Shown: piece after piece, positions 15,145-20,225 of the stretch
Layout of the letters: every line of letters starts with the position of its first letter
Position numbering within the stretch: the stretch's first letter is position 1
Assembly: GCA_018433765.1 (NCBI GenBank)
Contig: JAHDQO010000001.1
Location: forward strand, 310,001 to 374,000
DNA: 64,000 nt
Direction: 5' to 3'
Source: Tissierellales bacterium
GTDB taxonomy: Bacteria; Bacillota; Clostridia; Tissierellales; Sedimentibacteraceae
The notes under the pieces: generated by a model
Told to the model about the DNA's origin: nothing
What the model saw: only the letters and a program-made list of their open reading frames with translations
The model's database searches: none
Position numbers and translations under genes: made by a program

Positions 15145-15939
15145 ATGTTAAGAAAATTAGAAGAAAAAGATAGAAAAATTACGATGGATTTTTTAAGTAG
15201 TGAAGCAGAAATAAATCTGTTTATTATTGGTGATTTAGAATGTTATGGTTTTGATAAAGATTTTATGGAAATATGGGGTAGTTTTAATAATTTAAATGAG
15301 CTTGAAGGAGTTTTGCTTCAATACCATGAAAATTTTATACCATATTACAAAGATAGTAATTTTGATACCGAGGAGTTTAAACATATAATATCTTCTATGA
15401 AAGGTAAAAAAATAATTTCAGGTAAAGAAAGTATTGTTAATCAATTTATAAATACTTTAAATAATCCTGTGATTAAATATGATTATTTTTGTAAGCTAAC
15501 GGATGGAAGCAAATTAAAATATAGTAATGACATTGTAAAATTAGCTGTAGAAGAAGATGCTACAAGAGTATTTGATCTTCTTGAAGAAATTAAAGAATTT
15601 AAAGAGACAGATACAAATTCAGTAGATAGAATTAAGAATGTTATTTTAACAAAATCAGGACGAATTTATTATATTGAGGATGAAAATGGTAAAATGCTGA
15701 CAACTTCTCAAACTGCTGCTGAGAATTCTACATCTGCAATGGTTGTTGGAGTAGCAACGTTAAAAGAATATAGAGGCAGAGGCTTAATGACTCAATGCTT
15801 GTCTAAATTGTGTAGAGATGTTTTAGCTGAGAACAAAACATTATGTTTGTTTTACGACAATCCTAAAGCTGGCAGTGTTTATCACAAAATAGGATTTGAA
15901 ACTATTGAAAAATGGATGATGTTAATAGATAAAATATAA
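15145..15939 (+). CDS. GNAT-family N-acetyltransferase
   Basis: 264 residues with a C-terminal GNAT fold. Motif A is clear as VGVATLKEYRGRGLMTQ (about 196-212), with the pyrophosphate-binding RGRGL, followed by the FYDNPKAGSVYHKIGFE beta-bulge/strand typical of the family. The N-terminal ~110 residues are a separate, poorly conserved domain, as in larger two-domain GNATs; the substrate cannot be assigned. It has its own GAGGAGG site. It precedes the HIRAN-MoxR gene by 55 bases in the same direction, so co-transcription is possible but not established. Confidence 0.8.
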   Translation: MLRKLEEKDRKITMDFLSSEAEINLFIIGDLECYGFDKDFMEIWGSFNNLNELEGVLLQYHENFIPYYKDSNFDTEEFKHIISSMKGKKIISGKESIVNQFINTLNNPVIKYDYFCKLTDGSKLKYSNDIVKLAVEEDATRVFDLLEEIKEFKETDTNSVDRIKNVILTKSGRIYYIEDENGKMLTTSQTAAENSTSAMVVGVATLKEYRGRGLMTQCLSKLCRDVLAENKTLCLFYDNPKAGSVYHKIGFETIEKWMMLIDKI

Positions 15940-15994: not shown

Positions 15995-17614
15995 ATGAAA
16001 AAGACTAATGTAGGTATAATATTAATAGATGAAAAAATCCCTTTTGAGATAGGTGATGAGGTTTTATTAAAAAGAGAAATAAATAATAAGTACGATGAAA
16101 ATATAATAAAGTGCATAAAAGGTAAACAGGTTATAGGTTATGTTTCATCTGATGATTATACAGTTCCGGAAGATTGTTTAATAAATAAAAATATTATTCC
16201 TTATTTTAAGCTTATTGATGAAATTCAAGGGACTGTAGTACTTACTGAAAATATAATATATAGGAAAATTGACGATAAAGCAACAAACGTTTACATCGTT
16301 GAAGTATATCTTCCAGACATTGAAAATAGAGAAAAAGAGAAAAATAAAAAAGCAGAAGTCATTATAGGAGGAACAAAAAAAGAGTATCCTTATAGAGAGA
16401 AAATTATAGAGATGATTAATAGTGATCAGAAATCAATAGAAGGTATACTAAGTTTAAAAAAAGAAGAAATAATTGTAAATGAAAATGCTATAGGTAATAT
16501 CAAAAATATATTATATAGAAGTAATAGTATAATAGATTTTACACACATACTAAATGATGATATTAGTATTATAATAGAATTAAAGGAACAATATAAATTA
16601 ATAGGAAAAGTAAAACTAAATAAGCAAACAGAGAATCAAATAAATAAAGAATATTTAAATAAAATTGCAAAAGATGTTGTAAGAAAAGGATTAGATGGGA
16701 AAGAAAATATGCATGAAAAATTGGAATATATTAAAGAAAATAATATTCCCGATTTTTTGTTTGCCAAAATTTTAGAAACGTATATTAAATATTCTAATAA
16801 AGACAATCAATTTTTAAAAAAACCACAATTCACATATATAGATAAACAAGGAATTATGAAAAGAGCTCTTCATTATTTAACATTAAATAATAAGAACTTA
16901 ACATTTGTAGGTGAAAGAGGGGCAGGAAAATCAACTTTGGCAGAAACCATAGCTTGGATTTTTAACAGACCAGCTATAACTATATCTTTTTCACGTGACA
17001 CAGATAAATATGATATTTGGGGATATAAAACTATAGATATAACAAAAGAAGGAGAAAAAAAGGTAATATTTATAGATGGACCTCTTACAAAAGCAATAAG
17101 ACAAGGATATATAGTTATATTTGATGAGATAAATGTAGCAGATCCCGGAGTTCTAGAAAGTATGAATTCTGTATTAGACCATAGAAGAGAAGTTTATATT
17201 CCAGAATTAGGACAAATAAAGGCTCACAAAAATTTTATGGCAATTACAACTGAAAATAATGATACTTATCAAGGAGTAAACAAGCTGAATGAAGCTTTTA
17301 GAGATAGATTTATTAGAATAAAATGTTTACCTTATGAATCTATAAAAGACTTATTGATAATCAAAAATTCAAAATTGACTTTAGAAATCGCCGAAATTTT
17401 AGATAGCATTTATAAAGGTATAAGAAAACTGATTAAAGAAGGAGAAATATCTGAAAAGAGTTTAACAATAAGAGGATTTGAAAATGCTGCCTTAAGCTAT
17501 GAACCAGAAATTGTTTCATTAAAAGAAGTATTGATAGATTGTGTATTGAACCAAGGGGACAATGAAGATGATAAAAAACATATTATGAATATAATAAACA
17601 TGGAAGTATTGTAA
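15995..17614 (+). CDS. MoxR-type AAA+ ATPase with N-terminal HIRAN-like domain
   Basis: 539 residues. The C-terminal half is a MoxR-class AAA+ ATPase: Walker A GERGAGKS (306-313), Walker B VIFDEIN (374-380), a sensor-1-like TTENN (418-422) and an AFRDRF arginine-finger region (434-439). Residues about 15-105 resemble a HIRAN domain (GDEVLLKREINNKYDENII, then QVIGYV), known from SNF2/HLTF-type proteins and from stand-alone bacterial proteins that bind DNA ends. A 170-residue linker of unknown type lies between. MoxR ATPases act with VWA partners to remodel or metallate target proteins; such a partner begins 16 bases downstream. HIRAN on a MoxR protein suggests a nucleic-acid-linked client, which is inference. 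Confidence 0.82.
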   Translation: MKKTNVGIILIDEKIPFEIGDEVLLKREINNKYDENIIKCIKGKQVIGYVSSDDYTVPEDCLINKNIIPYFKLIDEIQGTVVLTENIIYRKIDDKATNVYIVEVYLPDIENREKEKNKKAEVIIGGTKKEYPYREKIIEMINSDQKSIEGILSLKKEEIIVNENAIGNIKNILYRSNSIIDFTHILNDDISIIIELKEQYKLIGKVKLNKQTENQINKEYLNKIAKDVVRKGLDGKENMHEKLEYIKENNIPDFLFAKILETYIKYSNKDNQFLKKPQFTYIDKQGIMKRALHYLTLNNKNLTFVGERGAGKSTLAETIAWIFNRPAITISFSRDTDKYDIWGYKTIDITKEGEKKVIFIDGPLTKAIRQGYIVIFDEINVADPGVLESMNSVLDHRREVYIPELGQIKAHKNFMAITTENNDTYQGVNKLNEAFRDRFIRIKCLPYESIKDLLIIKNSKLTLEIAEILDSIYKGIRKLIKEGEISEKSLTIRGFENAALSYEPEIVSLKEVLIDCVLNQGDNEDDKKHIMNIINMEVL

Positions 17615-17630
17615 TAAGAAGGTGATGTGC

Positions 17631-19427
17631 ATGTCTATGACGTATGAAGAAATGATTCAATTTGTAAAAAAAAATGAAATGCAAAATCAGCTGTACATTT
17701 CTGCTAAATATTTATTGAAGAATAAAGAATTTGAATTAAATATAGACGGATTATCTTCTTATACTGATGGCAGTACTATAAATATAGGATATCCATATAA
17801 ATTGATTGAAATATTAAATGAAGAAGAATTGATTATGTATTTTATGGCTTCTATGGGACATGAAATACAACATTTTTTATCTTCTCCTGCAAATGAGATA
17901 GATGAAACGCAGAAAATTATAACTAAAGACTTGAGTGAAAAAAGAATAAACAGGTATACAGCAGAAAATATAGCTAATTCAATATTAAATTCTCTAGAAG
18001 ATGCTAGAATAGATAATATACTAATAAACAGAAAAAAAGGATTTTTAAAATATATTAAATTTATGAGATATAAATTATTTATGTCTTATAAATTAGAAAA
18101 AGAAGAATTATATGACTTTATAAACACAATATATATTTATGCAACTACAGGATTATATCCAAGAGGTTTTGAAAACATATATAGAGACACAAAATTATAT
18201 GAAGAATTTAATAAAATAAAAAATGATATTGAAAGTGCAGTCTATGCGAGAACATGTAAAGATTGTATGAGTATTGTTATAAAAATAAAAAATAAAATAA
18301 TTGATTATCTCAAAGAATTAGTGCAGAAGGATGAAGGATTAGAACAAGAAAAATTTATAGAAAATGTCATATCATCAGGTAAAGAAGAAAAAGAATTTAA
18401 TTATGATAATACTAATAGCAGTAAAATAGATGATAATTCGGATTTAAATAATGATGAAGAAAAAACAAATGAAACAGAGAACATTGACTTTGATAATGCT
18501 GAATTTTACGAAAAGCAAGATGATATAGAAGGTGAAAGTAAAGAATTAAAGGATGAAGAAGTAAAAGATTTAGAAAAATATTATGTAGAAAAAGGTGCTA
18601 ATCCCAAAAGTTCAATTGTAATAAAAAGAGTTAATGAAGATAAATCAGAAAAAAAAGTTGAACTTACTTTTGATATTAAAAGAAAAATTAAAAAGTTTAA
18701 CTATGAAATTATTGATATAATGGAAGAAAGAAAACGACCACTTAGGAGAAATCAAAAGAGGGGACTAATAGATTTTAATAATTTGTACAGATTTGATATT
18801 TTCGGAGATGCAGATATATTTATAAAAAAAGCAAGAACCAATAAATACGATACAGTGTTCTATTTTTTAGTAGACGGTTCAGAAAGCATGAAAGAAGATA
18901 ATAAGTGGCAGTATGCCGTAGAAACTATGGCAGTATTAGAGGGAGCATTAAAAGAAATAGTTAAAATAAAAGTAGTCGTTTTCAATGCTATAGATAAAAA
19001 TACACAGCATATAGTTATAAAAGATTTCGATGATATTAAAGATGAAAATCTTATATATACAAGTTACAAAAAAGAATATATTTATCCAAAAGGAGCTAAT
19101 AAGGACGGAGCAAATATTAGAATAGCATCAAAAGAATTAGAAAAAAGAAATGAAAAACAAAAAATATTGTTTATTTTATCAGATGGGATGCCATCTGCAT
19201 ATTCTTACAATGGTAAATTTGCAGTAAATGATGTGAAAACCGGAGTTAAAGAAGCCAGAAGTAAAAATATAAAAGTTATTTCTATAATGTTTGGAAGTAA
19301 AGATTTTAGAAAAGAATATTATAGAGTATATAAAGAAATGTATGAAAAAAATATTATTTCAACAGAACCATCCAAAATATTTCTAAAAATAATAAGAGTT
19401 TTAAAAGATATATTTGCTAATGGATAA
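17631..19427 (+). CDS. VWA-domain protein with HExxH motif, MoxR partner (CobT-like architecture)
   Basis: 598 residues from ATG 17631, chosen over GTG 17622 and ATG 17625 because the AAGAAGGTG site overlaps them. The N-terminal part carries HEIQH (77-81) followed by an LEDARID helix (122-128), the pairing seen in metallopeptidase-like N-domains of CobT-type VWA proteins. A very acidic linker spans about 236-315. The C-terminal VWA domain (about 407-598) has a complete MIDAS motif, DGSES (D415, S417, S419). This layout of helical/zincin-like domain, acidic linker and VWA matches MoxR partners such as CobT, NorD and ViaA. Together with the preceding ATPase it should form a two-gene machine. 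Client unknown. Confidence 0.8.
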   Translation: MSMTYEEMIQFVKKNEMQNQLYISAKYLLKNKEFELNIDGLSSYTDGSTINIGYPYKLIEILNEEELIMYFMASMGHEIQHFLSSPANEIDETQKIITKDLSEKRINRYTAENIANSILNSLEDARIDNILINRKKGFLKYIKFMRYKLFMSYKLEKEELYDFINTIYIYATTGLYPRGFENIYRDTKLYEEFNKIKNDIESAVYARTCKDCMSIVIKIKNKIIDYLKELVQKDEGLEQEKFIENVISSGKEEKEFNYDNTNSSKIDDNSDLNNDEEKTNETENIDFDNAEFYEKQDDIEGESKELKDEEVKDLEKYYVEKGANPKSSIVIKRVNEDKSEKKVELTFDIKRKIKKFNYEIIDIMEERKRPLRRNQKRGLIDFNNLYRFDIFGDADIFIKKARTNKYDTVFYFLVDGSESMKEDNKWQYAVETMAVLEGALKEIVKIKVVVFNAIDKNTQHIVIKDFDDIKDENLIYTSYKKEYIYPKGANKDGANIRIASKELEKRNEKQKILFILSDGMPSAYSYNGKFAVNDVKTGVKEARSKNIKVISIMFGSKDFRKEYYRVYKEMYEKNIISTEPSKIFLKIIRVLKDIFANG

Positions 19428-19445: not shown

Positions 19446-20225
19446 ATGAAAATGGAGAATAGAATGACTTTATATGTTTCAGAACTAATTAAACCTGAGG
19501 AACTATTTCCTATTTTAAATGAATATGAACTTGGACTTGAAGTAACAAAATTTAGTATGGGAGATGTTATAGACAATAGTGAGATTAATTGTAAAGAATT
19601 TAAAAAACAATTAAAAAATTATGAGTTTACAAATAAAATATCATTTCATGGGCCATATTGTGATCTTGTTCCTGCAAGCTTTGATTCAAAAATTAAGAAA
19701 GCTACAAGTGAAAGATTTAACAGTGTGTATGATATAGCTAAAAAATTCAATTCAGAACATATAGTATTTCATACAGGCTTTATTCCCAAAATGCATTATC
19801 CAGACTACTGGTTAGAGAAATCAATAACATTTTGGAAAGAGTTTATAAAAAATAAAGAAAATATAGAAATACTTATAGAAAATGTGCTAGAAGATGACTT
19901 TATGCCAATATTTGAATTAGTTGAAGAGATTAATCATCCTAATTTTTCAGTATGTTTAGATATAGGTCATGCTAATGCATGTTCATCAAAAGGTATAGAA
20001 AACTGGATTAAAGGATTAAATAAAAAGATTAAGCATGTCCATCTGCATAATAATGATGGTATACATGATAACCATTTTGGATTACAAACAGGTAATATCA
20101 ACATATTGAATACTTTAGAATGTCTCAACACATTTTGTCCAAATGCATCTTGGACACTCGAAGTATTCAATAAAGTTGATATTATAGAATCCATAAAGGT
20201 ACTCAAAGATAATAGATTTTTATAA
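19446..20225 (+). CDS. Xylose-isomerase-like TIM-barrel protein (sugar phosphate isomerase/epimerase or EndoIV-like)
   Basis: About 259 residues with the AP-endonuclease-2/xylose-isomerase-like fold. Metal-ligand motifs along the strands are visible: ISFHGPYCD, IVFHTG, LIENVLED, CLDIGHAN, HVHLHNNDG and HFGLQTGNIN. The H/E/D set is intact, so the protein should bind two or three divalent metals. The family includes sugar isomerases/epimerases and the DNA-repair enzyme endonuclease IV; sequence alone does not separate these. Starts are possible at 19446, 19452 or 19464, none with a strong site. It begins 18 bases after the VWA stop, so probably one operon, and ends one base from the convergent kinase gene. 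Confidence 0.7.
   Translation: MKMENRMTLYVSELIKPEELFPILNEYELGLEVTKFSMGDVIDNSEINCKEFKKQLKNYEFTNKISFHGPYCDLVPASFDSKIKKATSERFNSVYDIAKKFNSEHIVFHTGFIPKMHYPDYWLEKSITFWKEFIKNKENIEILIENVLEDDFMPIFELVEEINHPNFSVCLDIGHANACSSKGIENWIKGLNKKIKHVHLHNNDGIHDNHFGLQTGNINILNTLECLNTFCPNASWTLEVFNKVDIIESIKVLKDNRFL

Follow-up and report, generated by a model that had tools for sequence, protein, structure and literature searches.

A 64,000-nucleotide stretch of a Tissierellales bacterium genome (GenBank assembly GCA_018433765.1, contig JAHDQO010000001.1, positions 310,001 to 374,000, hereafter the window) contains a two-gene unit encoding a MoxR AAA+ ATPase with an N-terminal HIRAN domain and a protein with metallopeptidase-type and VWA domains. 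Because relatives of this pair on plasmids, phages and conjugative elements lie near replication or recombination genes, we tentatively favour, with slightly less than even confidence, a role as a remodeller of replication or recombination nucleoproteins that would be tethered to DNA by HIRAN. The basis of this proposal is the domains and motifs of both proteins, the co-occurring genes, the grouping of the pair with megaplasmid pairs found beside genes for SSB, primase and DnaE, the placement of distant pairs lacking HIRAN, and purifying selection between two related copies. MoxR-VWA machines are mostly viewed as metal-insertion or assembly chaperones, and the version with HIRAN, a domain of the DNA-end-binding type, points to a role in the DNA metabolism of mobile elements; furthermore, HIRAN gives a handle on the substrate, which makes the role testable. 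No description of the HIRAN-MoxR fusion, or of its link to replication modules, was found in the literature searched, which lay mostly outside subscription journals.

Domain organization of the ATPase and its partner

The two genes and their domains, all on the + strand, are as follows.

15995..17614, +: HIRAN-MoxR AAA+ ATPase, 539 amino acids (open reading frame list, Pfam), with the ribosome-binding site aaggag before the ATG
15995..16345, +: HIRAN region, residues 1-117 (Pfam match 14-53; own profile 17-112)
16346..16870, +: middle region, residues 118-292, which aligns with plasmid relatives and has no convincing Pfam family
16898..17311, +: AAA_5 domain (Pfam), with Walker A GERGAGKST (306-314), Walker B FDEIN (376-380) and LNEAFRDRF (431-439)
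17631..19427, +: metallopeptidase-VWA partner, 598 amino acids from ATG 17631 (open reading frame list, Pfam, motifs)
17622..18344, +: N-terminal HExxH domain as modelled by AlphaFold2 in the frame from GTG 17622 (predicted local distance difference test, pLDDT, 89.6)
17859..17873, +: HExxH motif HEIQH, residue 77 (motif scan)
17988..18008, +: NxxEDxR motif NSLEDAR, residue 120
18861..19328, +: VWA domain (Pfam), with the MIDAS motif DGSES (residue 415) at 18873-18887

According to sequence profiles, the window ATPase carries a HIRAN-family domain. The initial annotation had placed a HIRAN-like domain at its N-terminus, and residues 15-105 do match by profile. Pfam PF08797 matches residues 14-53 with an E-value of 1.3e-5 and 25.4 bits, just above the cut-off of 24.7, and the match spans model positions 17-57 of 96. 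An independent HIRAN-region profile, made only from the protein of genome G016 and three plasmid proteins with rows taken from a joint alignment, matches residues 17-112 of the whole protein with 40.9 bits; against the N-terminus alone it scores 46.3 bits, and the best of 2000 shuffles scores 11.8. A seven-row profile that includes the window protein matched PDB chain 3k2y, which we take to be a HIRAN structure, with an E-value of 5.2e-6, and five HLTF sequences at about 0.01. The AlphaFold2 model of residues 1-292, obtained from a two-sequence alignment, has a pLDDT of 37. The AAA_5 domain (residues 302-439, E 2.5e-23) shows both Walker motifs, as in MoxR proteins of the CbbQ/NorQ/CobS type, and matches structure profiles of CbbQ, NorQ and CobS. 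In HLTF, tyrosines Y72 and Y93 of HIRAN stack on DNA (PMC4666394). Residue Y33 of the window ATPase lies within an NNxYD motif that aligns with HLTF, and we infer that it is the equivalent of Y93.

The partner starts at ATG 17631, preceded by agaaggtg, although the open reading frame list starts it at GTG 17622. This ATG is 16 bases past the MoxR stop codon, and both the HExxH motif and an intact MIDAS are present, which bears out the gene pair as initially annotated: a MoxR gene beside a gene for an HExxH-VWA protein. The VWA domain matches PF00092 with an E-value of 2.6e-8 and also structure profiles of NorD and CobT. All 13 partners examined show NxxEDxR, whose glutamate is probably the third zinc ligand, and DxSxS. 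HExxH is found in ten of them: those of the window, G016, six megaplasmids, G498 and one virus. It is lost in the three partners of the g16 genomes (three related genomes of the order, G037, G193 and G194, with loci L062, L064 and L021, the last taken to be of G193), which represent three of the four closest copies, so that peptidase activity, if any, seems dispensable. In L062, L064 and L021, the motif is replaced by HEVQY, NQAQR and NQVQR, respectively, and the MIDAS motif is retained. Foldseek found no match to the N-terminal model at E ≤0.001. VIA placed zincins (ZMPSTE24, selecase, a putative Zn peptidase, ArdC and jannalysin) among its best rows with Z of 4-5 and a best Z of about 5, in a range where unrelated helical proteins and designs score alike.

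Relatives of the pair and their gene neighbourhoods

PF08797 was found in 67 of the 249 genomes of the order, in most of the listed ones within frames of about 125-150 residues. In this genome search, frames of 528-547 residues with PF08797 were found in the own genome, G037, G194 and G016; long HIRAN frames were also seen in G050, G214 and G236. Near-full-length partners among the 249 genomes are those of G037, G193 and G194 (62-63% identity) and G016 (35%). A peptide-pattern scan of genome contigs returned three loci, of which one, L021 of Anaerosalibacter massiliensis, is full-length, and the HExxH-domain profile matched 3 of 398 genomes across the phylum. Among plasmids, the same seven records were the first seven of 72,556 for each of the two window proteins. 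They correspond to six distinct plasmids, two Paenibacillus polymyxa records of equal length being counted as one, and the hosts are Brevibacillus halotolerans, Aneurinibacillus, P. polymyxa, P. thiaminolyticus, Geobacillus subterraneus and Jeotgalibacillus malaysiensis. Furthermore, Acinetobacter baumannii plasmid records of about 105-114 kb show a protein that weakly matches the Brevibacillus VWA partner.

HIRAN and AAA_5 were detected by Pfam in one frame in L054 (Brevibacillus; HIRAN E 2.1e-6, 27.9 bits), L055 (7e-5), G037 (1.7e-4), G016 (3e-4), L021 (0.0068) and L056 (0.03). On the whole protein, the PF08797 cut-off was passed only by the window and L054, and in the genome search also by G037 and G194. 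The independent profile gave about 40 bits each for the window, G037, L021 (40.6) and G194. On the megaplasmids, the HIRAN match is above the cut-off in Brevibacillus and below it in Aneurinibacillus and P. polymyxa. The fusion is thus rare at the level of profile matches: it was found in the own genome, the three g16 genomes, G016 and three of the six Bacilli megaplasmids. A tree of 35 AAA sequences groups 11 of them with support of 100/99, namely those of the own genome, the three g16 genomes, G016 and the six megaplasmids.

Selection was estimated between G037 and G194 as the ratio of nonsynonymous to synonymous substitution rates (dN/dS), which was 0.02 for the AAA domain, 0.05 for VWA and 0.12 for HIRAN, the counts being small. 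Two neighbouring genes gave 0.10 and 0.08, and an S41-type gene 0.34. Because AAA and VWA are strongly constrained, DxSxS is kept in all partners examined and HExxH is lost in g16, it is the motor and the MIDAS that seem indispensable.

In five of the six megaplasmids, the genes annotated directly upstream of the pair, on the same strand, are those of SSB and a CHC2 primase; all six have an annotated DnaE gene within 7 kb downstream, which in Brevibacillus and Jeotgalibacillus is the next gene. The primase and DnaE labels of Brevibacillus were checked by Pfam. In G016, SSB is about 4 kb from the pair, and pilus-like genes, among them one for a T2SSE-type secretion ATPase, are nearby; another contig of this genome (C135, L188, 6.9 kb) shows the set known from the Bacilli megaplasmids, with SSB, DnaE and a CHC2-DUF3854 primase. 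Within 20 kb of the G498 pair, which lacks HIRAN, are genes for SSB, a CHC2-DUF3854 primase, a PD-(D/E)XK nuclease, a beta clamp and a type IV secretion system coupling protein. In a conjugative Salmonella island, which we read as SXT-like, the gene order is MoxR, a 302-residue protein, ssb, bet, a YqaJ exonuclease, DUF3150 and metallopeptidase-VWA; in SXT, ssb, bet and exo are described as operon-like (SXT paper). The island VWA protein (L189, 6060-7856) matches both the CobT family PF06213 (26.6 versus a cut-off of 26.1 bits) and the HExxH-domain profile, and so the N-terminal domain of CobT may belong to the same family as the HExxH domain.

In two annotated cyanophages (P-RSM1, L185, and SynMITS9220M01, L186), the genes of the partner and CobS are enclosed by gp46/gp47-type genes on one side and gp45/gp44-type genes on the other, and the partners match a HExxH-domain profile that includes viral rows. 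The 'cobS' and metallopeptidase-type genes of these phages thus lie between a recombination endonuclease and the sliding clamp and clamp-loader genes, a placement that suggests a role of cyanophage cobS in DNA metabolism. This bears on its usual reading as a vitamin B12 gene: the gene is listed under vitamin B12 synthesis, with the statement that whether it serves this in the infected host is unknown (PeerJ paper). No HIRAN match was found in the MoxR of both cyanophages, in those of loci L148, L150 and L187 or, with our own HIRAN profile (which contained Jeotgalibacillus and omitted Geobacillus), in 80 IMG/VR loci with MoxR relatives. A 416-residue protein of L148 was considered as RecT, a label unconfirmed by Pfam or NCBIfam. 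A viral scan with the Brevibacillus MoxR as query returned no relative, and one with the HExxH-domain alignment returned at least one.

Viral pairs fall into 17 clusters, and in nine of these the fetched stretch shows a homologue of the replication queries, as a raw count from a scan with at most four members shown per cluster and a primase query taken from L066. The neighbours of viral pairs (97 open reading frames, up to three genes per side at one locus for each cluster, as raw counts) include, among the best 25 of 128 PHROG families, clamp-loader (5), SbcC (4), sliding-clamp (4), exonuclease (4) and primase (3) families. For comparison, five hand-picked loci with generic MoxR genes from the order showed no match to the HExxH-domain profiles and no neighbour matching the replication queries; in this set, the neighbour of the L192 MoxR was not matched by the VWA profile, and the L194 MoxR itself matched the clamp-loader query. 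The expectation that homologues lie by DNA-related genes, and not by one metabolic enzyme, holds for the relatives on mobile elements; next to the chromosomal copies, no metabolic gene recurs and no DNA genes are seen.

Proposed role of the pair and alternative explanations

The machine would be a CobS/CobT- and NorQ/NorD-like remodeller coupled to DNA. MoxR would assemble as a ring, on which the metallopeptidase-VWA protein would dock through its MIDAS and present a client protein, and the HIRAN domains would keep this ring on forks or DNA ends. Driven by ATP hydrolysis, the ring would then unload or pull apart a nucleoprotein of replication or recombination, and the HExxH domain could add an optional cleavage step. 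Since the pair is found without a replication module in this genome, it may here take part in replicating or repairing the host DNA, or counter incoming elements.

Several observations weigh against this role. In the viral scan, eight of the 17 clusters showed no match to the replication queries, one of the nine matches was the source of the query itself, and phage replication genes are clustered anyway. The contrast with generic loci is blurred by two similar loci with a RadA-like repair gene two genes away, which in the MoxR-VWA pairs of G006 and G018 (L190 and L193) lies upstream. The chromosomal copies (own and g16) have no replication gene beside the pair, and their neighbours differ between the own genome and g16, where the pair is flanked by an S41-type protease gene and an ExoIII-type gene (labels of our own reading). 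The DUF3854 primase was not found in the own genome; weak DUF3854 matches in G037 and G193 are to 615-residue frames taken to be DnaG. HIRAN is unsupported on three of the six megaplasmids: those of Geobacillus, of P. thiaminolyticus, whose protein lacks the N-terminus, and of Jeotgalibacillus, with 5.5 bits by the independent profile; our own HIRAN profile did match the latter, but circularly, since that sequence was among its rows. With Jeotgalibacillus counted as HIRAN-bearing, the HIRAN label needs three changes on the AAA tree, and therefore losses are likely. Furthermore, between G037 and G194 the middle region and the HExxH domain give dN/dS values of 0.30 and 0.43, respectively, from few changes. 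Finally, the own and g16 copies retain the tyrosine aligned with HLTF Y93, which G016 and the plasmids lack, and no equivalent of Y72 was seen in the aligned HIRAN-MoxR sequences, an alignment that omits Geobacillus, Jeotgalibacillus, P. thiaminolyticus and G194.

The absence of replication neighbours at the chromosomal copies would also fit a general chaperone for protein assembly or quality control, acting on virions, pili or other complexes, in which HIRAN would serve other contacts and the replication neighbourhood would reflect the early-gene clustering of mobile elements. Iyer et al. (2021) described a MoxR with metallopeptidase-vWA pair in group 2.2 jumbo phages and proposed virion assembly for it (PMC7824862), and the secretion ATPase and pilus-like genes near the G016 pair point in the same direction. 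However, in plasmids, phages and conjugative elements the pair has replication or recombination genes nearby, and none of the best 25 of 128 PHROG families of the viral neighbours is named structural. We regard this chaperone role as unlikely, but as a serious contender.

Degradation of HExxH in g16, together with the weak constraint on the HExxH domain and the middle region between G037 and G194, could indicate a domesticated mobile-element relic with no present function, for which chromosomal copies without an adjoining replication module also speak. This is very unlikely, as the frames of the own and g16 copies are intact, and a comparison of G037 with G194 indicates purifying selection on AAA and VWA.

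An anti-phage function had been suggested in the initial annotation. In such a biological-conflict or anti-phage system, HIRAN would sense the ends of invading DNA. MoxR-vWA cores do occur in ternary conflict systems (PMC7159879, PMC8195603), HIRAN with HipA-type kinases has been proposed as a sensor of phage DNA ends (PMC8262856), and the distribution of the pair in the order is sporadic. The window ATPase matched bpMoxR, the MoxR of one ternary conflict system, with 17.7 bits, below the cut-off of 27. PADLOC 2.0.0 gave only weak matches to the AAA region of the ATPase (best E 2.6e-4) and none for the partner; among ten further proteins (five window neighbours, four L021 neighbours and the L021 partner), only the window response regulator matched, also weakly. 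Anti-phage defence is unsupported, none of these matches being convincing. Moreover, according to Pfam there is no effector domain 3' of VWA, where ternary systems carry one: the VWA match ends at residue 569 of 601, and no other C-terminal family was found. No third gene beside the pair is common to the own genome and g16, and many relatives sit on mobile elements. We therefore consider a conflict system rather improbable. Control by the SOS response was also considered and rejected: no LexA-type box was found near the operon, and the window shows 9 near-matches versus 11.8 expected by chance.

The genes flanking the pair in the window are the following.

15145..15939, +: GNAT acetyltransferase gene, 55 bases upstream of MoxR (Pfam), absent at the matching place in g16
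19446..20225, +: TIM-barrel (AP_endonuc_2) gene, 18 bases downstream of the partner (Pfam), below the CbiR cut-off

No terminator-like site was found between the GNAT gene and MoxR. A Pfam scan of these two genes found no nor, cbb or rav enzyme, in agreement with the initial annotation. The TIM-barrel protein matches CbiR with 65 bits, below the cut-off of 105. It was rejected as a partner of the pair: its homologues in g16 are on other contigs, unlinked to the pair, and the window query found none in G016, where a different AP_endonuc_2 gene lies 5.4 kb from the pair.

This sub-cut-off similarity to CbiR, together with the profile matches of the ATPase to CbbQ, NorQ and CobS and of the partner to NorD and CobT, would agree with insertion of a metal or cofactor into an enzyme, as by CobS/CobT or NorQ/NorD. 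However, CobN (PF02514) was found in none of five genomes (the own genome, the three of g16 and G016), whereas 5 of 14 control genomes were positive, and the cobaltochelatase CobNST was accordingly discarded. In addition, the CbiR-like gene is unlinked to the pair in g16, no client enzyme gene beside the pair is common to the loci, and HIRAN would be left without a role. Metal insertion is thus held to be highly improbable.

A nucleoprotein remodeller might take a more specific form by analogy with the eukaryotic arrangement of Cdc48 plus Wss1/SPRTN. We regard as quite doubtful, yet worth stating, that the pair could be a bacterial ATP-driven counterpart, in which a DNA-end-bound ring with its adaptor would extract, and where HExxH is kept would cleave, proteins stuck on DNA. 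In this reading, the sites would be stalled forks or recombination ends, mobile elements would carry the machine near their replication genes, and the own genome and Anaerosalibacter-type relatives would have taken it over.

Comparison with known systems

The jumbo-phage pair resembles that of the window in that a MoxR ATPase adjoins a VWA protein whose N-terminal part is a metallopeptidase domain (PMC7824862); the likeness is one of description, and the pair differs in its proposed role in virion assembly and in HIRAN, for which no match was found in the 80 viral loci scanned here. In plasmid pCAR1, the MoxR ORF101 and the VWA protein ORF103 belong to a block, ORF100-103, conserved in R478, Rts1, SXT and R391 (PMC2642839). 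This block shares with the window the presence of MoxR and VWA genes conserved on conjugative elements, and the VWA protein of the Salmonella island matches the N-terminal domain profile. Unlike in the window, the MoxR of that island carries CbbQ_C without a match to HIRAN, and its gene is separated from the VWA gene by five annotated genes.

The window pair is similar to CobS/CobT and NorQ/NorD in that its AAA and VWA domains match the solved structures; it differs from them in CobN, which was not found in the five genomes scanned, and in the fusion of HIRAN to the ATPase. The HIRAN of HLTF and of HipL/HipN belongs to the same domain family as that of the window by profile. In HLTF, this domain is attached to a SNF2-type helicase. 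In HipL/HipN, it is found on a HipA-type kinase or antitoxin (PMC8262856), unlike in the window, where it is attached to a MoxR ATPase.

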